Translations under genes and position numbers: made by a program | Origin: Myxococcales bacterium | GTDB lineage: Bacteria > Myxococcota > Myxococcia > Myxococcales > JAKAPL01 | Direction: 5' to 3' | NCBI GenBank assembly: GCA_021783235.1 | Contig: JAJXUD010000016.1 | Coordinates: 1-64,000, forward strand | Length of the DNA stretch: 64,000 bases | Notes under the pieces: model-generated | Seen by the model: only the letters and a program-made list of their open reading frames with translations | The model's database searches: none | Told to the model about the DNA's origin: nothing | In this document: positions 25,604 through 61,682 of the stretch, piece after piece | Numbering within the stretch: position 1 is the stretch's first letter | How the letters are laid out: every line of letters begins with the position of its first letter

Positions 25604-25637
25604 CCCGCATGGCGAAGGCTCAAGAGGGAGAAGGCCG

Positions 25638-28370
25638 ATGACCAGACTCCGCGTGGGATCTGCAGCGCTGGTGGCGATGTCCGGGTTGCTCGTCGCGGGG
25701 TGGGCCGATGCGGCGGTCTCGCCGCTCGTCGATCGCATCGAACGGATCGACGTCGAGCCGTCGACGACGGGGAGCCGGGTGATCGTCCACGGGACGCGGG
25801 CGCCCGTGTTCAGCGTCTTCCGGTTGAACGCTCCCGAGCGAATCGTGCTCGATCTCTCGGGGGCCGACGTGTCGGCAACGCGCCTTCCATCGGGCGCGGA
25901 GCTCAGGGGGCTCGCGCCGCTCTCGGTCGTCCAGTTCCAGAACGCGAGCGGGCACGTGGGCCGCGTCGTCCTTCAGGCGAGCGCGGATACGCGCTATGAC
26001 GTGCAGGTCCGAGGTGACGACGTCGTCGTCGCCCTCGCGGAGGGAAAGGCGCCGGAGGCGAGGCAGTCGGTGTCGAAGGTGCTCGAGGCGAGGACGGAGG
26101 CCGCGCCTCCCGTCACGGCGGCCGCCGCTCCGACTGGAGCGGCACGGCTTGTCACGGCGGATCCCAGCCTCGTCGAGCGTCGAGTCGAGACGCGCGACGT
26201 CGAGCGGGCTGGCCATCGCGTCCTCTCCGTCAGGGCCGAGCTCCGCGATGGCGAGCCCCGCGTCGACATCCGGACGGATGGGCCGGTCGCGAGCTACACC
26301 GTGCTTCGACTCAAGGATCCGCCGAGGCTCGCGCTCGATCTCCAGGGATTCACCGCTCGGGGCGCCAAGCTCCACGCCGGCAAGGGGGTTCGCGGCATCC
26401 GGTTCGGGAAGAACCCTGACGGGTTGCGCATCGTATTGGACGTCGATGCCGCCGAGATCCCGGCCATGGTCGAGAAGCTCGGAGCTGCGGGTCTCGCCCT
26501 CCGGGCAGTGACGCCGTCCAAGGGGGCGCCGCTGGCGTCGGTGCGTGCCGCCGCGAAGCCGTCCATCGCGCCGTCCGTTGCGCCTCCCCTGGGCGCGCCA
26601 GCCCAGGTCCCAGCCAAGAACCTCGCCCGGGTTCGCGATCTTCGCATCGCGCAGGAGGCTGGCGGTGAGCGCGTGATCGTCGAGCTCGAGGGCGGCGCCG
26701 CCGCGCTGCCGCAGGTTCGCTCGGATGGCCAGGGGGAGTTCGAGCTCTCGCTCGACGGGGTCCTTCTTCCGAAGTCGCTGCAGCGGACCCTCGACGCCTC
26801 GGCCTTCTCGGGTCCGGTTTCCACGGTCTCTTCCTTCAACGACGGTCGGCGCGCCACGAAGGTCGTGGTCAAGGCCGTCGCCCAGGCTCAGCAAGAGCTC
26901 CGCCGAAGCGGCGATCGGCTCACCTGGACGTTCGTTTCCCCGGCGCCAACGGTGGAGTCGCAGGCCAAGGCCGCGGTCGCCGTGACGCCTCCGGTGCGCG
27001 TCGAGGAGAGTGCCGGCCAGGCGGCGGGCTTCGCGACCGCCGTAGCGACGGCGGGAGACGCCGCTCCCTCGCGGCCGCGCTACACGGGACGCCGCGTGTC
27101 GATGGAGTTCAAGGACATCGACATCCAGAACCTCCTGCGGCTCTTCGCCGAGATCAGCCACCGGAACATCGTCGTCTCCGACGACGTCAAGGGCAAGGTG
27201 ACGATCGCCTTGCGCAACGTGCCTTGGGACCAGGCCTTCGATCTCATTCTCAAGACCCACGGCCTCGGGAAGGAGGAGGTCGGGAACATCATCCGGGTCG
27301 CCCCCGAGGCCGTGCTGGAGAAGGAGCAGAAGGAGGCGCTGGACGCGCAGAAGGCGCGACAGCAGCTCGCTCCCCTGAAGGTCCGGCTCATCCCCGTCAA
27401 CTACGCGCTCGCCTCGGACGTCGCCGACAAGATCAAGGACGTGCTCTCCGATCGGGGCGTGGTGACGGTGGATCAGCGGACGAACGTCTTGATCGTCAAG
27501 GACGTGGTCGAGAACCTCGCCAAGGCCGAAGGGATGGTTCGCAACCTCGACACCCAGACGCCCCAGGTCTTGATCGAGTCGCGGATCGTCGAGGCGGCGA
27601 CGACTTACAGTCGCGAGATGGGCATCCAGTGGGGCGGCAACGGCGGGTTCTCTCCGGCCACCGCGAACCCGACCGGCCTGGTCTTCCCATCCTATGCCAC
27701 CGTCGCTGGAGCCGCGGGCGAGGCTCCGAACGCCGGCACGGCCATGAACCCGAACTTCGCCGTCAACTTGCCCGCGGCCATCGGCCCGGGATCCGGCGGT
27801 GGCCTCGGCTTCATCTTCGGGAGCGCCGGCGGCGCTTTCAATCTGAACCTCCGGCTCTCGGCGCTAGAGAACAACGGCCTCGTCAAGACCGTCTCCGCGC
27901 CGAAGGTCGCGACGCTCGACAACCAGGAGGCGACGATTAGTCAGGGTCTGTCGATTCCATTCGCCCAGGTCTCCGCGGCCGGCGTCCAGACGGCCTTCAT
28001 CGAGGCGCGCCTCGAGCTCAAGGTCACGCCCCACGTGACGGCCGACGGCAGCATCCTCATGAAGATCAACGCGACGAACAATCAGCCGAACTCCGGCATC
28101 ACCGGTGCGAACGGCCAGCCTTCGATCTCCCGCAAGGAGGCGAAGACTCAGATGCTCGTGAAGGACGGCGACACCACGGTCATCGGCGGCATCTATACCC
28201 GCCAGACGGGGCTCTCGATCAACGAGGTCCCCTTCCTCGGCAAGATCCCGATCCTGGGGTGGCTCTTCAAGCACCGGGCCGACTCGGACAATCGGACCGA
28301 GCTGCTGATCTTCATTACGCCCCGGATCTTGAACCGCCAGCAGGTCGTCAGCGCCGGCGCGGGCGGTTGA
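25638..28370 (+). CDS. pilQ: Type IV pilus secretin PilQ
   Basis: PilQ forms the outer-membrane ring through which the pilus passes. The 910-aa preprotein has a signal peptide ending near ADAAVS, three AMIN (peptidoglycan-targeting) domains (about residues 30-125, 180-290 and 335-435), an N0/STN domain (488-550, EFKDIDIQNLLRLFAEISH), an N1/NolW domain (581-650, VRLIPVNYALASDVADKIKD) and the secretin barrel to the C-terminus (VPFLGKIPILGWLFKHR and ELLIFITPRI). ATG at 25638 has GGGAGAAGG before it; the frame is open further upstream only inside pilP. The 35-nt gap to pilP is short, so one operon is likely. Confidence 0.96.
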   Translation: MTRLRVGSAALVAMSGLLVAGWADAAVSPLVDRIERIDVEPSTTGSRVIVHGTRAPVFSVFRLNAPERIVLDLSGADVSATRLPSGAELRGLAPLSVVQFQNASGHVGRVVLQASADTRYDVQVRGDDVVVALAEGKAPEARQSVSKVLEARTEAAPPVTAAAAPTGAARLVTADPSLVERRVETRDVERAGHRVLSVRAELRDGEPRVDIRTDGPVASYTVLRLKDPPRLALDLQGFTARGAKLHAGKGVRGIRFGKNPDGLRIVLDVDAAEIPAMVEKLGAAGLALRAVTPSKGAPLASVRAAAKPSIAPSVAPPLGAPAQVPAKNLARVRDLRIAQEAGGERVIVELEGGAAALPQVRSDGQGEFELSLDGVLLPKSLQRTLDASAFSGPVSTVSSFNDGRRATKVVVKAVAQAQQELRRSGDRLTWTFVSPAPTVESQAKAAVAVTPPVRVEESAGQAAGFATAVATAGDAAPSRPRYTGRRVSMEFKDIDIQNLLRLFAEISHRNIVVSDDVKGKVTIALRNVPWDQAFDLILKTHGLGKEEVGNIIRVAPEAVLEKEQKEALDAQKARQQLAPLKVRLIPVNYALASDVADKIKDVLSDRGVVTVDQRTNVLIVKDVVENLAKAEGMVRNLDTQTPQVLIESRIVEAATTYSREMGIQWGGNGGFSPATANPTGLVFPSYATVAGAAGEAPNAGTAMNPNFAVNLPAAIGPGSGGGLGFIFGSAGGAFNLNLRLSALENNGLVKTVSAPKVATLDNQEATISQGLSIPFAQVSAAGVQTAFIEARLELKVTPHVTADGSILMKINATNNQPNSGITGANGQPSISRKEAKTQMLVKDGDTTVIGGIYTRQTGLSINEVPFLGKIPILGWLFKHRADSDNRTELLIFITPRILNRQQVVSAGAGG

Positions 28371-28404: not shown

Positions 28405-29337
28405 ATGCGAAAGATCATCCTCGCCGCTCCCCTGTTGGTGGCCGGCTGCCTGAATCAGGGCAACGAGTCGATCGACATTCCGTTCGCGGTGCTGGCGACG
28501 GACGAACTCCAGGCGCCAGCGCCTGGCACCCCATGCATCTGGGCGCCGGTCACCCAGGCGGGAGGCGTGTTTCGCTCCGACGGATTCGTCGAGCTCGACA
28601 CCGCGATCAACTCCTCGCCCGAGTACGTCCTCGGCCTCCAGGTGGAGAACGACCTCGACAACACGGTCATCGTGGATTCGAACGGGAACCCGGTCGACGG
28701 GCCGCAGCGAAACGAGTTCCACGTCCAGAACGCCCTCATCAAGTACCTTCCCCAGCAGAGCTATCTCTCGGGGAACGGGATGCCACAGGCGGCCACCATC
28801 CTCGTCTCTGGCGCATTCCAGCCCATCGGCGGAGCGGGCGGGACGCAGGGGGCGGGTGTCATGGTTCTCAACACGTTGAGCGGCGCCGCGGTGCAGGCGC
28901 TCGAGGCCAACCTCGCCCCGACGTCGGGGAACACCCAGGGCGACCTCGTGCTTCAGATTCAGCTCAACGGCGTGCTCGGCTCGGGAGAGGCGGCCTCCAG
29001 CGGGACGTTCTTCTTCCCGCTGCACGTCTGTTACGACTGCTTCGGAATCGGCCCGACGGCCTATCCCTCCCAGGGGATCGCCGCATGCCCCGCCGGGACG
29101 GAATTGGTCGTCGAAGGCCACGGTGCCTGCTGCTCGAATCAGGACTTCAGCGCGGCCTGTATGTCTTGCGGTGGCAAGGGAGAGCCGTGCTGTTCGGGTG
29201 GGCCCGCCTGCATCAACGCGGCCGGTGCGACTCAGACGACCTCGTGCCTGCCGCTACTGACTCCGGCAATCGGAACCGAATTCTGTCCGGGAAATGCCGC
29301 GCCGGCGGAGATCGCTTTCTCGAACGCCTGCCAATGA
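28405..29337 (+). CDS. Cys-rich lipoprotein encoded after pilQ, 310 aa
   Basis: MRKIILAAPLLVAGC is a lipoprotein signal (LVAGC lipobox). The first 200 residues of the mature protein look like a beta-rich domain (FAVLATDELQAP..., EYVLGLQVENDLDN), and the last 90 residues hold a cluster of about a dozen cysteines, several in CC pairs (HVCYDCFG, GACCSN, CMSCGGKGEPCCSG). No family is recognised. ATG at 28405 with GGGAAGG upstream is preferred over earlier in-frame starts. The location 34 nt after pilQ suggests a pilus-linked outer-membrane lipoprotein, in the way that Tgl-like pilotins accompany PilQ, but it has no TPRs and is not a Tgl homologue. Confidence 0.8.
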   Translation: MRKIILAAPLLVAGCLNQGNESIDIPFAVLATDELQAPAPGTPCIWAPVTQAGGVFRSDGFVELDTAINSSPEYVLGLQVENDLDNTVIVDSNGNPVDGPQRNEFHVQNALIKYLPQQSYLSGNGMPQAATILVSGAFQPIGGAGGTQGAGVMVLNTLSGAAVQALEANLAPTSGNTQGDLVLQIQLNGVLGSGEAASSGTFFFPLHVCYDCFGIGPTAYPSQGIAACPAGTELVVEGHGACCSNQDFSAACMSCGGKGEPCCSGGPACINAAGATQTTSCLPLLTPAIGTEFCPGNAAPAEIAFSNACQ

Positions 29338-29350
29338 GGCCAATCGATTC

Positions 29351-29390
29351 TTGACTCGCCTGGGCGCGCCGACTACAAACCGGCGCGCCC
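29351..29390 (+). promoter_or_regulatory. Promoter with a 10-bp palindrome enclosing the -10
   Basis: TTGACT (29351-29356) and TACAAA (29374-29379), 17 nt apart, form a promoter for the Roadblock gene, whose ATG (29391) is 11 nt beyond the -10. The arms gggcgcgccg (29362-29371) and cggcgcgccc (29381-29390) form a perfect inverted repeat whose 9-nt centre holds the whole -10 element. A repressor bound here would block the promoter directly. Confidence 0.65.
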
Positions 29391-29750
29391 ATGGCGTTCA
29401 AAGATCACCTCGAGGCGATCTGTTCTTCAGTCGAAGGAGCGATCCTCTCGAGCGTGATGGGCTACGACGGTATCGCCGTCGAGACCACGGAACAGGGCGC
29501 CCCAGGACTCGACGTGCCCTCCCTTCTCGTCGAGTACACCGCTCTGCTCGGCCAGGTGCGCAGTGCGGCCACCGTCCTCCAGTCTGGCAGCGTCGAAGAG
29601 CTGGTTCTTTCCACCGAACGGTTGACCGTGTTCTCGCGTCCCCTGACTGCGGACTACTTCCTGCTCGTCGCGCTGGCGCCCGGGGCCAACTGGGGCAAGG
29701 CGCGCTACCTGATGCGTATCACCGCCCCAAGGCTCCGCTCGGAGCTCTAG
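29391..29750 (+). CDS. Roadblock/LC7 (MglB-like) protein, 119 aa
   Basis: The 119-aa protein is a Roadblock/LC7 domain: N-terminal helix LEAICSSVEGAILSSVMG, the strand MGYDGIAVETT, helix LLVEYTALLGQVRSAATVL, and strands LVLSTERLTVFSRPLTADYFLLVALAP. The fold regulates small Ras-like GTPases; in Myxococcus MglB is the GTPase-activating protein of the polarity switch MglA. No MglA-type GTPase gene is adjacent, so the partner is unknown. It stands first in the transcript that continues with efp, accB and accC (45-nt gap to efp) and is controlled by the palindromic promoter described before it. Confidence 0.88.
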   Translation: MAFKDHLEAICSSVEGAILSSVMGYDGIAVETTEQGAPGLDVPSLLVEYTALLGQVRSAATVLQSGSVEELVLSTERLTVFSRPLTADYFLLVALAPGANWGKARYLMRITAPRLRSEL

Positions 29751-29795: not shown

Positions 29796-30365
29796 ATGGC
29801 CGAAGTCATCGACACCAGTGAGTTTCGAAAAGGCCTCAAGATCGAGGTCGAGGGCGATCCGTATGAGATCGTCGACTTTCAGCACGTCAAGCCCGGAAAG
29901 GGCGGCGCCTTCGTCCGCACTCGAATCAAGAATCTCCTGACGGGCAACACGCTGGAACGCACGTTTCGCTCGGGGGACAAGGTTGGCAAGCCCGACATCG
30001 AAGAGCGGGAGATGCAGTACCTCTATGCCGAGGGCGACGCCTACCACTTCATGGATAACAAGTCCTACGAGCAGACGTTCGTGACGGCTGAAGCCCTCGG
30101 CGACGCGAGGAACTATCTCAAGGCCAACATCAATGCCTCGATCCTCTTTTACAAGGGGAAGGCCATCGGAGTGACGCTCCCGAACGCAGTCGATCTCAAG
30201 GTCGAGAAATGCGACCCCGGGGTTCGGGGCGACACGGTTTCGGGGGCCACCAAGCCCGCGACCATGGAGGCCGGTTGCATCGTCCAGGTGCCGCTCTTCG
30301 TCAACGAAGGGGACGTGCTACGCATCGACACCAGGACAGGCGCCTATATCACCCGGGTCGGCTGA
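29796..30365 (+). CDS. efp: Translation elongation factor P
   Basis: EF-P binds between the P and E sites of stalled ribosomes and relieves stalling at proline runs, of which this genome has many (Pro/Ala-rich linkers in several products of the window). The 189-aa protein has the three beta-barrel domains of EF-P, including the N-terminal KOW-like segment with the modification loop [10 protein letters not shown] (Lys35 being the residue normally modified), and the C-terminal [16 protein letters not shown] signature. The ATG at 29796 has GGAGGGAG 5 nt upstream. It starts the efp-accB-accC order frequent in myxobacteria. Confidence 0.97.
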
Positions 30366-30372
30366 GGAGCCC

Positions 30373-30831
30373 ATGGACCTCGAGAAGCTCAAGGCCATCT
30401 TCGCGCTGCTCGAAGGCAGTGACGTCACCTCCCTCGACTGGAAGAATGGCGAGGAGAGTCTCACGCTGAAACGCGGAAACCTGGCCTCACCCTCGCTCGC
30501 TGTCGTCCCGCCTCCGCCAAACGCCGCTTCGAGCCTCGCGGTGCCCGCGTCGGCGGGCCGCCCGGAGCCGGTCGTCGCGAAGAACGTCTATACGGTGACG
30601 TCGCCTTTCGTCGGGACCTTCTATCGGTCGGCCTCTCCCGAGGCTCCGCCGTTCGTGGAACCCGGGCATTCCGTGCGCAAGGGGCAGGTTCTCTGCATTG
30701 TCGAGGCGATGAAGCTCATGAACGAGATCGAGGCAGAGGTGCCCGGCAAGATTCTCGAGATCCTGGCCGAGAACGGTCAGGCCGTCGAGTTTGGCGAGCC
30801 CCTCTTTCGCATCGAGCCAGCCGGGAGCTGA
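30373..30831 (+). CDS. accB: Biotin carboxyl carrier protein of acetyl-CoA carboxylase
   Basis: AccB carries the biotin that shuttles CO2 from biotin carboxylase to the carboxyltransferase in fatty acid synthesis. The 152-aa product has an N-terminal helical region, a Pro/Ala-rich flexible stretch (about residues 38-66) and the biotinyl domain with the biotinylation site Lys114 in [13 protein letters not shown]. The family thumb and [15 protein letters not shown] block are present. The stop codon directly abuts the GTG of accC. Confidence 0.96.
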
Positions 30832-32196
30832 GTGTTCTCGAAGATCCTCATCGCGAACCGCGGCGAAATCGCGCTCCGCATCATTCGGGCCTGTCGCGAA
30901 TTGGGAATCGCCACCGTCGCCGTCCACTCCACCGTGGACGCCCAGGCCTTGCACGTCCGATTCGCCGACGAGTCGATCTGCATCGGCCCGCCTGCCGCCA
31001 AGGAGAGCTACCTCAGCATCCCCGCGCTTCTGTCGGCCGCCGAGGTGACGGGTGCCGACGCCATTCACCCGGGATACGGCTTTCTCTCTGAGAATGCTGA
31101 GTTTGCCGATGTCTGCCGGAACTGCGGCATCCACTTCATCGGCCCTTCCCCAGAGGCGATTCGCCTCATGGGAAACAAGGTCCGAGCCCGCGAGGCCATG
31201 TCGAAGGCCGGCTTGCCGCTTCTCCCCGGTAGCAGCGGCGTCTTGCGCGACGAGGACGAGGCCGAGCAACTGGCGCGCGACATCGGGTTCCCGGTGATCC
31301 TCAAGGCCGCTGCCGGCGGCGGTGGCCGTGGCATGAAGATCGTGCGCGAGGTCGGGCCCTTGCGTCAGGCGTTTCGGACGGCGCAGGCCGAGGCCGCTGC
31401 CTCCTTCGGAAGCCCGGACATGTTCCTCGAGCGGTACGTCGAGAGGCCTCGGCACATCGAGATTCAGATCGTGGCCGACACCAAGGGCTCGATGATCCAC
31501 CTCGGCGAGCGCGAATGCTCCGTGCAGCGTCGCCACCAGAAACTCATCGAGGAGAGCCCGTCGCCCGCGCTCGACGAAGCGCGTCGCGCCAAGATCGGAA
31601 AGATCGCCGTCGATGCGCTCAAGAAGACCGGCTATTCCACCGTTGGAACCCTCGAGTTCTTGATGGACGAGCGGGGCGATTTCTACTTCATGGAGATGAA
31701 CACGCGGATCCAGGTCGAGCACCCGGTCACCGAGCAGGTGACGGGCATCGATCTCGTCCGCGAGCAGATTCGCCTCGCCGCGGGGGAGCCGCTCGGCCGC
31801 ACCCAGAAGAGCATCCGCCTCCACGGGCACGCCATCGAGTGCCGAATCAACGCCGAGGACCCGGTGACGTTCGCGCCCTCCCCCGGGAAGATCACCGGCT
31901 ACCATGTCCCCGGTGGCTACGGCGTCCGCGTCGATTCCGGAGTCTACGAACAGTACGTCGTCCAGCCCTTCTACGATTCGCTTCTGGCGAAGGTGATCGC
32001 CTTCGGGGACGATCGCGAGATTGCCCTCGCCCGGATGCGCCGCGCGCTCGGGGAGTTCGTCGCCGAGGGAATCCGGACGAACATTCCGTTCCACCGGTCG
32101 GTTCTCGCCTCGGACGACTTCCGCGAGGGGCGCTACGACACCCGTCTCGTCGAGCGGATCCTCGGAGGCGAGGGGGCCCTTCGCCAGGCCTCCTAG
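30832..32196 (+). CDS. accC: Biotin carboxylase subunit of acetyl-CoA carboxylase
   Basis: AccC uses ATP and bicarbonate to carboxylate biotin on AccB, the first half reaction of malonyl-CoA synthesis. The 454-aa enzyme has the N-terminal domain (ILIANRGEIALRIIRACRELGI), the ATP-grasp domain with the glycine-rich KAAAGGGGRGMKIV, the EMNTRIQVEHPVTE active-site segment, and the C-terminal barrel. The length is the standard one for a stand-alone biotin carboxylase. The GTG start is directly after the accB stop. A possible terminator lies 18 nt after its stop. Confidence 0.97.
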   Translation: MFSKILIANRGEIALRIIRACRELGIATVAVHSTVDAQALHVRFADESICIGPPAAKESYLSIPALLSAAEVTGADAIHPGYGFLSENAEFADVCRNCGIHFIGPSPEAIRLMGNKVRAREAMSKAGLPLLPGSSGVLRDEDEAEQLARDIGFPVILKAAAGGGGRGMKIVREVGPLRQAFRTAQAEAAASFGSPDMFLERYVERPRHIEIQIVADTKGSMIHLGERECSVQRRHQKLIEESPSPALDEARRAKIGKIAVDALKKTGYSTVGTLEFLMDERGDFYFMEMNTRIQVEHPVTEQVTGIDLVREQIRLAAGEPLGRTQKSIRLHGHAIECRINAEDPVTFAPSPGKITGYHVPGGYGVRVDSGVYEQYVVQPFYDSLLAKVIAFGDDREIALARMRRALGEFVAEGIRTNIPFHRSVLASDDFREGRYDTRLVERILGGEGALRQAS

Positions 32197-32399: not shown

Positions 32400-35273
32400 A
32401 TGGACAAGAACAAGATCATTCAGGCCGCGACCAAATTCGTCCAGAAGGGGCAGTTCGACAAGGCCATCAAGGAATACCAACGGATCCTCGAAGAGGACCC
32501 GAAGGACATCCGCATCCTCCTCAAGATCGGTGAGCTGCACCAGAAGCGAGGGGACAACGTCCAGGCGGCTCAGGATCTTCTCAAGGTCGCCGAGGCGTAT
32601 TCGAACGACGGCTTCTTCCTCAAGGCCGCTGCCGTCTACAAGCAAGTCCTCAAGCTCAATCCAAACCTCGTCGACGTCAACCTCAAGCTCGCGGAGCTCT
32701 ACCAGCAGCTCGGCCTGATGAGCGACGCGTTGCAGCAGTTCCAAGTCGTCGCGACGGCCTACGAGCAGCAGGGCAACGTGCAGTCGGCCCTGGGGACGCT
32801 CAAGAAGCTAATCGAACTCGATCCCGAGAACGTCGCCAATCGAATCCGGCTCGCCGAGTCCTTCGCCCGCGAGGGCATGAACCGCGAGGCCATCGAGGAG
32901 TTCCAGAAGGTCGCCACGACGCTCAGGGAGGCAAACCGGGCCGACGAGTACGTCAAGGTCGCCGAGCGGCTCAGCTTCCTCGACCCACAGGACCTCACCC
33001 TCGCGCGCGATCTCGCGAACGTCTACCTCGCCAAGGGCGATACCAAGCGCGCCCTCGCGAAGCTCCAGATCTGTTTCAAGGCCGACCCGAAGGACGTGGA
33101 CACGCTGGTGCTGCTCGCCCAGGCGTTCAAAGAGCTCGGCCAGATCGCGAAGACCGTCTCGGTCTACAAGGAACTCGCGAAGATCTACTCCGATGCCGAT
33201 CGTTCGGACGACGAGCGCGTGGTTTGGCGAAAGATTTTGGCGCTGGTTCCCGACGACCCGGATGCCCAGCGCTGGCAAGGGGGCCCGGCGCCGGTGCGCG
33301 CTGCTTCGGCTCCCGCGATCGCGCCCGCCGCTCCCGCCCGTCCTGCGGCGGGGCCGGTCGCGGCCCCACGGGCCGAGGCTCACGGCCCGGAGGCGGTTGC
33401 AAAGCTGCTGACGGAAACCGACGTCTATCTCAAATATGGGCTGCACGCGAAAGCGGCCGAGCACATCAAGAAGATTCTCGCCCTCGCGCCAGGCAGCCTC
33501 CCGGCGCACGAGAAGGCGAAGGATCTCTTCCTGACCATGGGTGACAAGGCTCGCGCCGCGGACGAACTCGTGAGCTGCGTGCGGCTCGCCCATGCCGCCG
33601 GCGGCTTGGACGCGGCCCAATCGCATCTTCGTCAGCTCCAGGAGATCGTTCCAGAACACCCCTCCATCGCCGACCTCGCGGCGCAAGTCGGAGCGCCGGT
33701 CGAGGCGTCCGAGATCGCGGACGATGCAATCTTGGTGGAGGCGGCCGAGGAGGAGCTTCTCGTCGCCGCGGATGGCGAGGAGGAGCTCGTCGCGGCGAGC
33801 GATGACGAGCTGCTCATCGCTGAGCCCGACGTAGAGGAGGACGAGGCGCTCTTCTCCGAGGAGGAGGCGCAGCCCGGCGCCGCCGAGGTTGCCCTCATCG
33901 ATGGCGACGAGTCGATCGTACCGGAAGACGAATCCTCGGAGATCTCTTTGGACGAGGGATCGGGCTCCGAGGAGCTCGGCGAGGAGCTCGTCACCGCGAC
34001 GGAGGAGGAGGCGCTGGCGAGCACCGTCGTTCGGGAAGTCGTCGAGGACGAGAGCGTCGAGCCAGCTCTTTCCCTCGAGCCCTCGGTCGACGAGCCATGG
34101 AACGAGCCGCCGTCGGACCTCGAAGAGGCCGCCGAGGCGACGATCGTCGGAGCGCCGATGCCCGTCGTGCCGGTCGCCAAGGTGGAGCAGCCTCCGGCAA
34201 GGGTTCCTCCCCCCAGCGAGGCGCCACGTCGAGTAGCTCCTCCCGGGGTGGCGGTGGCTCCTCGCCCCGTATCGCCTCCAGCTTCACCCGTATCGCGGCC
34301 CGTTCCCGTTCGTCCTCCCGCCGTAGGCGCTTCGCCCGAGGCAGCCGTTCCATCGAGGCAGCAGGCTTCGTCCGACAGACGGTCTGGCTCGTCGTCGTCC
34401 GCGGCGCCCGCCGCGCCCGCCGCCTCGCCGGCGTCCCGGGCACCGAGGCCGGCCGCCGCTGGCGCCTCGTCGGCAGGGGCCCCCGCGGCGCCCAAGAAGG
34501 CGGCCGCTCCGGCTCCGGCTCCGCCTGCTGCCGAGGAGTTCGAGCCCGAGGAACTCGCGGAGACCGAGTTCTTCCTCGAACAGGGCCTCCTCGACGAGGC
34601 ACGTGAGGCACTCGAGGCGCTCCGCGGCAAGGGCCTCCACGGCGAGGCGCTCAGGAAACTCGAGGCCCTCGAGGCTCGGCTCGCGGCCCCGTCGAGCGGC
34701 GAGGGAGGGGCGATAGAAGAGGAGGAGAGCTTCGACCTCGCGGCAGAGCTCGAAAAGGAAGTCGAGGAGACTCGTGCCTCGATGCCCCCGGCCGACGATT
34801 TTCAATACTCGGTCGAGGACGTGCTTCGCGACTTCAAGAAGGGTATCGAGAAGGTCGTTCGGCCGGAGGATGTCGAGACGCACTACGACCTCGGAATCGC
34901 TTACAAGGAGATGGGGCTGACCGACGAGGCCATCTCCGAGTTCGAGCAGGCCGCGAAGGGCGCTACTGGCAGACCGCGTGAGGCCGATTGCCTCGCGATG
35001 CTGGGGCTTTGCCTGGCCGGAAAGGGGGAACCCCAGAAAGCGGTCGAGGTCTTCGAGCGGGCGCTCGAGATCCAGGGGCTCCGGCCGGAGAGTCGGCTCA
35101 ACCTTCACTACGAGATCGGTGCCGCAAAGGAGGGGCTCGGGGACGTCGACGGGGCCATGGATGCCTTTCAGAAGGTCGCGGGCCTCGATCCCGCCTATCG
35201 CGACGTCGGCGAGAGCCTCGCCCGCTTGAAGGCCACGCCGAAGGGTGGGACCAGAAAGATCGGCTACGTCTAG
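32400..35273 (+). CDS. Large TPR protein with acidic and Pro/Ala-rich regions, 957 aa
   Basis: Three regions can be read. Residues 1-290 contain a series of TPRs (AIKEYQRILEEDPKDIRILLKIGELHQKRGD split over two helices, and so on). A Pro/Ala linker (about 295-325) leads to another TPR block (330-430). A very acidic stretch (about 435-585, dense in Glu/Asp) and a Pro/Ala/Ser linker (about 587-710) follow, and the C-terminal 245 residues carry more TPRs (HYDLGIAYKEMGLTDEAISEFEQAA). There is no signal peptide or membrane helix, so it is probably cytoplasmic. The acidic-plus-TPR layout recalls FimV and similar scaffolds of pilus and secretion systems, an inference only. The ExeA-like gene follows after 3 nt. 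Confidence 0.85.
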   Translation: MDKNKIIQAATKFVQKGQFDKAIKEYQRILEEDPKDIRILLKIGELHQKRGDNVQAAQDLLKVAEAYSNDGFFLKAAAVYKQVLKLNPNLVDVNLKLAELYQQLGLMSDALQQFQVVATAYEQQGNVQSALGTLKKLIELDPENVANRIRLAESFAREGMNREAIEEFQKVATTLREANRADEYVKVAERLSFLDPQDLTLARDLANVYLAKGDTKRALAKLQICFKADPKDVDTLVLLAQAFKELGQIAKTVSVYKELAKIYSDADRSDDERVVWRKILALVPDDPDAQRWQGGPAPVRAASAPAIAPAAPARPAAGPVAAPRAEAHGPEAVAKLLTETDVYLKYGLHAKAAEHIKKILALAPGSLPAHEKAKDLFLTMGDKARAADELVSCVRLAHAAGGLDAAQSHLRQLQEIVPEHPSIADLAAQVGAPVEASEIADDAILVEAAEEELLVAADGEEELVAASDDELLIAEPDVEEDEALFSEEEAQPGAAEVALIDGDESIVPEDESSEISLDEGSGSEELGEELVTATEEEALASTVVREVVEDESVEPALSLEPSVDEPWNEPPSDLEEAAEATIVGAPMPVVPVAKVEQPPARVPPPSEAPRRVAPPGVAVAPRPVSPPASPVSRPVPVRPPAVGASPEAAVPSRQQASSDRRSGSSSSAAPAAPAASPASRAPRPAAAGASSAGAPAAPKKAAAPAPAPPAAEEFEPEELAETEFFLEQGLLDEAREALEALRGKGLHGEALRKLEALEARLAAPSSGEGGAIEEEESFDLAAELEKEVEETRASMPPADDFQYSVEDVLRDFKKGIEKVVRPEDVETHYDLGIAYKEMGLTDEAISEFEQAAKGATGRPREADCLAMLGLCLAGKGEPQKAVEVFERALEIQGLRPESRLNLHYEIGAAKEGLGDVDGAMDAFQKVAGLDPAYRDVGESLARLKATPKGGTRKIGYV

Positions 35274-61207: not shown

Positions 61208-61239
61208 CCCCGCAGGCCCTTACCGTTCGGCCTGCGGGG
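61208..61239. repeat. Perfect 11-bp stem-loop between the dehydrogenase and holin-like genes
   Basis: ccccgcaggcc (61208-61218) and ggcctgcgggg (61229-61239) with a 10-nt loop. It lies 15 nt after the dehydrogenase stop and 5 nt before the next ATG, so it covers the only Shine-Dalgarno-like purines (ggggga). It has no T-run. It could end the upstream transcript or occlude translation of the downstream gene. Confidence 0.65.
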
Positions 61240-61244
61240 GAGCG

Positions 61245-61682
61245 ATGGCACTGCGAGACGGGGACGGGGTATCGGCGGCGCTCGCGCAGGTGACGGGCAG
61301 CCTGGGCCGGCTCGTGGCCGATCACCTCGAGCTCGCCCGGCTCGAACTCTGGGAGGAGATCGTGCCGCTCGCCGGCGGCGCGGCGCTGACCGTGGTCGGC
61401 GGCGCGTTGCTCCTCTTTGGCTGGCTTCTCCTCATGGGCTGCTTCACGGCGCTCCTCGCGCAGGCCCTGCCGCTCTCGCTCGCGTTCCTCGTGGTCGCTG
61501 GAGCGAACGTGCTCGCCGGGGGCGCGGGCACTCTCCTGGGGTTCGCTACGCTGCGGCGGGCGCACATCGGCCTCAAGGCCTCGCGGCAGGAGCTCGATCG
61601 CGACCGGCGGATGGTCCGAAGCGTCTCGCACGAGCTCGCGAGAGCCTCACGAGAGGCGGGCCGCCCCGAGGCCCGGCAGTGA
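61245..61682 (+). CDS. Phage-holin-like membrane protein (Holin-X/DUF1469 type), 145 aa
   Basis: The layout is that of the putative Actinobacteria holin-X (Phage_holin_3_6) family: an N-terminal amphipathic helix (GSLGRLVADHLELARLELWEE), two closely spaced membrane helices (about 43-65 and 75-98), and a basic C-terminal tail (SRQELDRDRRMVRSVSHEL). Despite the name these chromosomal proteins are not part of a phage; they are thought to act at the membrane, for example in envelope stress. There is nothing viral around. The ATG is 5 nt after a strong stem-loop. Confidence 0.85.
   Translation: MALRDGDGVSAALAQVTGSLGRLVADHLELARLELWEEIVPLAGGAALTVVGGALLLFGWLLLMGCFTALLAQALPLSLAFLVVAGANVLAGGAGTLLGFATLRRAHIGLKASRQELDRDRRMVRSVSHELARASREAGRPEARQ

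Follow-up and report, generated by a model that had tools for sequence, protein, structure and literature searches.

The junction in front of mglC raises the question of what a palindrome is doing around the -10 hexamer of a promoter that runs directly into a start codon, and whether it would act on DNA or on RNA. The junction lies in a window of 64,000 nucleotides, the whole stretch of DNA that was analysed, taken from a Myxococcales bacterium. Between the stop of the upstream gene (29337) and the mglC ATG there are 53 nt, and within them TTGACT and TACAAA, spaced by 17 nt, form a sigma-70-type promoter that overlaps the palindrome: the -10 hexamer sits inside the loop and the right arm occupies the gap to the ATG. 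The sequence-only reading had described a palindrome with a central -10 element that touches this ATG, and its coordinates proved exact; the perfect repeat is really 11 bp long, given an extra pair, T29361/A29391, which includes the A of the ATG.

Table 1. Features of the mglC junction and its neighbouring genes, in window coordinates (f1, the family of the window genome; f4, a second family compared).
Feature	Position	Strand	Basis
pilQ	25635..28370	+	TIGR02515; start chosen within the frame open from 25509
Lipoprotein-like gene, upstream of mglC	28405..29337	+	Frame open from TTG 28372; 'lipoprotein' from the N-terminal sequence
-35 hexamer TTGACT	29351..29356	+	Direct read; TTGAC kept here in 36 of 80 f1 and f4 upstreams
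Left arm of the perfect 11-bp inverted repeat	29361..29371	.	Direct read; 29362-29371 in the sequence-only reading, GGGCGCGCCG
Loop between the arms, 9 nt	29372..29380		Direct read, ACTACAAAC
-10 hexamer TACAAA, in the palindrome loop	29374..29379	+	Direct read; orthologues TACAAG, TAGAAC, TAGAAG or TAAGAG
Right arm, last base the A of the ATG	29381..29391	.	Direct read; 29381-29390 in the sequence-only reading, CGGCGCGCCC, abutting the mglC ATG at 29391
Expected transcription start zone	29386..29391	+	Inferred from the -10 spacing
mglC orthologue (Roadblock/LC7 fold), heads the downstream gene group, no Shine-Dalgarno	29391..29750	+	Profile and predicted fold
efp	29796..30365	+	TIGR00038
accB	30373..30831	+	TIGR00531
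accC	30832..32196	+	TIGR00514

The genes run in the order pilO, pilP, pilQ, lipoprotein-like gene, mglC, efp, accB, accC, followed by genes for a 957-residue TPR protein and an AAA ATPase. The lipoprotein-like gene has no Pfam or NCBIfam family and weakly matches the gene found at the same place in genome G036 (E 1.6e-4). As for the 119-residue product encoded at 29391, a 19-member profile (the product plus 18 homologues) aligns with M. xanthus MglC (7ct3) along its full length (residues 1-119) at E 4e-50, and the predicted fold of the product (mean pLDDT 89.9) most resembles MglC, MglB and Roadblock proteins, with MglC at Foldseek rank 1. By this full-length profile match and predicted Roadblock fold the product is identified as the cell-polarity protein MglC, and the label 'Roadblock' given earlier to the gene agrees with both. 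The Pfam family Robl_LC7 misses this MglC (E 0.15), as does NCBIfam at a threshold of 0.001; among the 19 MglC homologues Robl_LC7 matches nine at E values up to 5. The downstream efp, accB and accC, already named in the sequence-only reading, were borne out by the family matches listed in Table 1. All three are presumably essential genes. Behind accC, at 32400-35273, the TPR protein occupies the place where a counterpart of M. xanthus SgmX is expected from the accessible part of the literature on that protein and, judged by position, it could be this counterpart.

The sequences upstream of mglC were compared across genomes. The gene is present in all 60 genomes of the relatives search (the window genome, G000, being counted), and family f4 has it in 95 of its 96 genomes. 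Upstream sequences were taken from those 60 genomes, 17 of them in f4, and from 60 further f4 genomes, so that 77 of the 95 f4 matches are covered; the total is 120 sequences, which are related and not independent. A promoter was defined as TTGACN, 16-18 nt, a TA-hexamer, 5-14 nt and a start codon. This arrangement occurs in 3/3 upstreams of f1 and 33/77 of f4 (the other 44 fall outside the rule) and in none of the 40 from other families, while 100 rounds of shuffling the 80 f1 and f4 upstreams gave a mean of 0.06 matches and a maximum of 1. Across the 36 promoter-bearing upstreams the -10 hexamer lies 6-12 nt before the start codon, and in 28 of them exactly 9 nt; in the window the end of TACAAA is 11 nt from the ATG, inside the distance of about 15 nt expected of a leaderless or near-leaderless gene. 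Furthermore, a Shine-Dalgarno sequence, defined as a duplex match of -5 kcal/mol or better, is lacking in 33 of the 36 upstreams with the promoter versus 22 of the 84 without it, and is present in most of the other families. For the mglC of the window the duplex energy is -1.7 kcal/mol, computed with an assumed anti-Shine-Dalgarno sequence, and the gene is thus counted as having none. Together, the comparison makes a firm case for a conserved mglC promoter adjoining the start codon in f1 and much of f4, and the putative near-leaderless layout is common to the same genomes. The promoter to which the -10 element of the sequence-only reading points is supported beyond anything visible to that reading, since its hexamers, spacing and position beside the start codon recur.

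Within the window genome, three places match TTGAC-N18-TANAA near an RTG, mglC being one of them. At L043:1501-1541 we find TTGACA-N17-TAGAAC with an ATG 9 nt further on, another near-leaderless candidate whose gene product looks HAD-hydrolase-like by eye; the third place was discarded because it precedes a cysteine-desulfurase-like gene whose start is further on. In G003, of family f2, mglC has no Shine-Dalgarno sequence, an AATAAT 9 nt before the ATG and no clear -35 (L030:1430-1500). A search of the open-licence literature listed no transcription start-site map of M. xanthus that includes leaderless genes, and the passages of MglC papers searched for operon and promoter say nothing on the mglC promoter.

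The palindrome shows a different distribution from the promoter. Both other family members compared, G001 and G002, keep TTGACA-N17-TAGAAC followed by 10 and 8 nt to a GTG, but the palindrome is absent from them and they have no arm of at least 8 bp; their MglC is only about 65% identical, so they are not close relatives. The upstream sequence printed for L002 is identical to that of G001, and pilQ is not seen upstream of mglC in either genome within about 1.5 kb (3 kb in L002). G002 has a shorter, imperfect hairpin around the -35, which may be due to chance. None of the arms found at f4 junctions has the sequence of the window palindrome. In the genome itself no second copy of the full site occurs within 3 mismatches, and the arms alone are found at one other place with 1 mismatch and at 25 with 2, compared with 17 for a reversed control pattern. 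A dispersed repeat or a regulon was rejected on these grounds, the arm motif being near control level. Moreover, Rfam gave no match at gathering score in the window, and no tRNA was found there. Two of the checks proposed with the sequence-only reading, a search for the palindrome elsewhere in the genome and its conservation in relatives (here two that are not close), thus came out negative. As far as the compared genomes show, the palindrome looks limited to this lineage; given that it is known from one genome, selection on it is not demonstrable.

How readily such a repeat arises was assessed at two scales. When the 53-nt junction is shuffled, an arm of at least 10 bp appears in 1 of 3000 dinucleotide shuffles and in 0 of 3000 mononucleotide shuffles. 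However, the window holds 11 inverted repeats with arms of at least 10 bp and loops of 3-20 nt, seven of them with arms of at least 11 bp, and a 464-kb sample of the genome holds 80 such repeats, about twice the first-order Markov expectation, at a GC content of 72% (70% in the window). Locally, then, the palindrome stands out, but for this genome it is nothing out of the ordinary. A 644-kb sample was scanned for hairpins with arms of at least 8 bp: their density per 10 kb is 16.6 in the 60 nt that follow stops (23 in 13.8 kb), 5.3 in the remaining non-coding sequence ahead of starts (7 in 13.2 kb) and 6.8 in coding sequence (368 in 542 kb). The density after stops is 2.5-fold that of coding sequence, with no enrichment before starts; these counts are approximate, since genes in both samples were called crudely as longest frames. 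A second perfect 11-bp inverted repeat, with a loop of 10, lies at 61208-61239 and ends 6 nt before the ATG at 61245, likewise behind a stop codon by the same crude gene calls.

The folding energy of the region as RNA has a z of -6.7, and the predicted local stem comprises 15 pairs (-32.6 kcal/mol) at 20-24 nt behind the stop codon. In read-through RNA the start region (-12 to +6) has a predicted mean unpaired probability of 0.17, a value as low in 1% of 300 shuffles, and the AUG itself is partly paired (0.35 unpaired, as low in 27% of shuffles), while in RNAs starting at 29385-29391 the AUG is predicted to be 0.67-0.70 unpaired. A canonical intrinsic terminator was considered and rejected: the GC-rich stem is present, but no T tract follows it, and it is not among the terminators that the scan reports. 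Hence the hairpin is not a standard terminator. The sequence-only reading had set aside a role in RNA on the grounds that a transcript starting near 29386 would contain half of the palindrome; this does not hold for pilQ and lipoprotein transcripts, which run on the same strand and would contain the whole.

If the palindrome is functional, it probably works at the RNA level, and the reading that we prefer, with slightly better than even confidence, is that of a conserved near-leaderless sigma-70-type promoter around which a lineage-specific hairpin is likelier to act on RNA from the pilus side. The mglC-efp-accB-accC message would start at 29386-29391, about 7-12 nt past the -10, and would have a leader of 0-5 nt, translation of mglC doing without a Shine-Dalgarno sequence. 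The palindrome would be an addition by this lineage around a fixed promoter. RNA entering on the same strand from the pilQ and lipoprotein side would carry the whole hairpin, which may serve the upstream message as a 3'-end marker or protection and, where RNA reads through, draw the mglC start region into its fold, and messages born at the promoter, lacking the left arm, would be free of it.

A comparable arrangement is found in Myxococcus-like genomes. Nine g24 genomes (G033, G036, G056, G106 and G118-G122) carry at the same junction a TTGACN loop flanked by arms of 10-12 bp, which are unlike those of the window palindrome. In the 300 nt upstream of mglC in these genomes (loci L091, L093, L097, L131 and L149-L153) the 6-nt loop is exactly the -35 hexamer. 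The arms are invariant in 9/9 genomes; for the left arm, which lies outside the core promoter, this holds in 10/10 columns, compared with one of the preceding 20 columns, and the last 8 nt of the spacer contain 4-5 T versus 0-2 in the six compared g24 genomes without the hairpin. The terminator scan lists the hairpin as terminator-like in G036, and it ends 21-23 nt before the start codon, leaving the latter uncovered. In this one clade the hairpin looks selected, and terminator-like for the pilus-side genes. The gene order, verified for G060 and G083, and the promoter are the same in g29 and g31, but such a hairpin is lacking there and is therefore dispensable. A general TTGAC-loop terminator in Myxococcus-like genomes was rejected, because G036 and G106 each have the pattern a single time, at this junction, and G113 and G000 do not have it. 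By title, nothing relevant on promoters inside terminators was found in the open-licence literature. A bolder proposal, which we consider rather unlikely, would have two lineages independently fitting a core mglC promoter hexamer into a GC hairpin loop downstream of pilus genes (the -10 here, the -35 in the Myxococcus-like clade). One DNA stretch would then end or silence incoming RNA and also launch the following message, and the polarity, efp and fatty-acid genes would be insulated from expression of the pilus genes.

The sequence-only reading had favoured tight control at the DNA level, with a homodimeric repressor bound to the palindrome blocking RNA polymerase at the -10. A perfect 11-bp dyad centred on the -10 and overlapping the promoter, of a size reached by one of the 3000 junction shuffles, is what such an operator would look like. 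However, the site is missing from G001 and G002 although both retain the promoter, has no second copy within 3 mismatches in the genome and is built of GC arms that resemble the hairpin arms common there, and no candidate regulator is found among ten classified neighbouring products. With a site that is unconserved and has no genomic copies, the proposed control by a dimer is not supported, and we regard an operator as very improbable and the weaker reading; for this one species, nothing speaks in its favour beyond the dyad itself.

Given the abundance of hairpins described above (11 repeats in the window, 368 in coding sequence) and the lack of conservation, the palindrome could also be incidental and without function, having arisen by chance where a 70% GC genome closes in around AT-rich hexamers. 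AT-rich hexamers are expected in the loops of GC hairpins, since fixed hexamers cannot sit in GC arms. We hold the incidental alternative to be unlikely, the local shuffles reaching such an arm once in 3000 and arms of at least 10 bp occurring at 11/120 orthologous junctions versus 0.3 in shuffles, though nine of the 11 belong to one clade. A further possibility is a switch of the T4 gene e type, in which the hairpin would specifically block translation of mglC from read-through RNA, translation being confined to messages initiated in the loop. The geometry is similar, with a promoter within the DNA of an inhibitory hairpin, as far as the accessible part of that report describes it (PMC3014915), and the start region is predicted to be poorly accessible in read-through RNA and the AUG largely unpaired in RNAs from 29385-29391. 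Nevertheless the AUG is only partly paired in read-through RNA, the window palindrome is not conserved and the Myxococcus-like hairpin stops short of the start codon; such a switch seems improbable.

Comparison was enough to place the promoter, and the likely start, of the mglC-efp-accB-accC message in two myxobacterial families, and it suggests that a near-leaderless message serves a gene group with housekeeping functions. Should the hairpin of our preferred reading be functional, one DNA stretch would provide a compact separation of two adjacent operons. The putative near-leaderless gene with its overlapping predicted hairpin is a new case beside three known systems. The window shares with intrinsic terminators at operon ends a GC-rich stem soon after a stop, and the Myxococcus-like counterpart has a T-rich tail as well; unlike them, the window hairpin has no T tract and its right arm runs into the next start codon. 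Leaderless bacterial genes, in the accessible parts of two reports (PMC3160421, PMC12340547), similarly have a -10-like hexamer adjoining the start codon and no Shine-Dalgarno sequence, and the 2011 survey found such genes in 8 of 33 delta-proteobacterial genomes (PMC3160421). In contrast to these, mglC of the window has a -35 and a hairpin overlapping the promoter, and the first T of its -10 is 17 nt before the ATG (15 in most orthologues), compared with about 12 in what is available of the survey (PMC3160421); since the -10 is farther away, a leader of a few nt is likely here. In the T4 lysozyme gene e, as presented in the accessible part of its report, late promoters internal to an inhibitory hairpin have been demonstrated, whereas in the window the arrangement is inferred only, with no Shine-Dalgarno sequence to hide, a partly paired AUG and no conservation. 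What the two have in common is promoter DNA lying within a hairpin that would be present in long transcripts from upstream and missing from short ones (PMC3014915).
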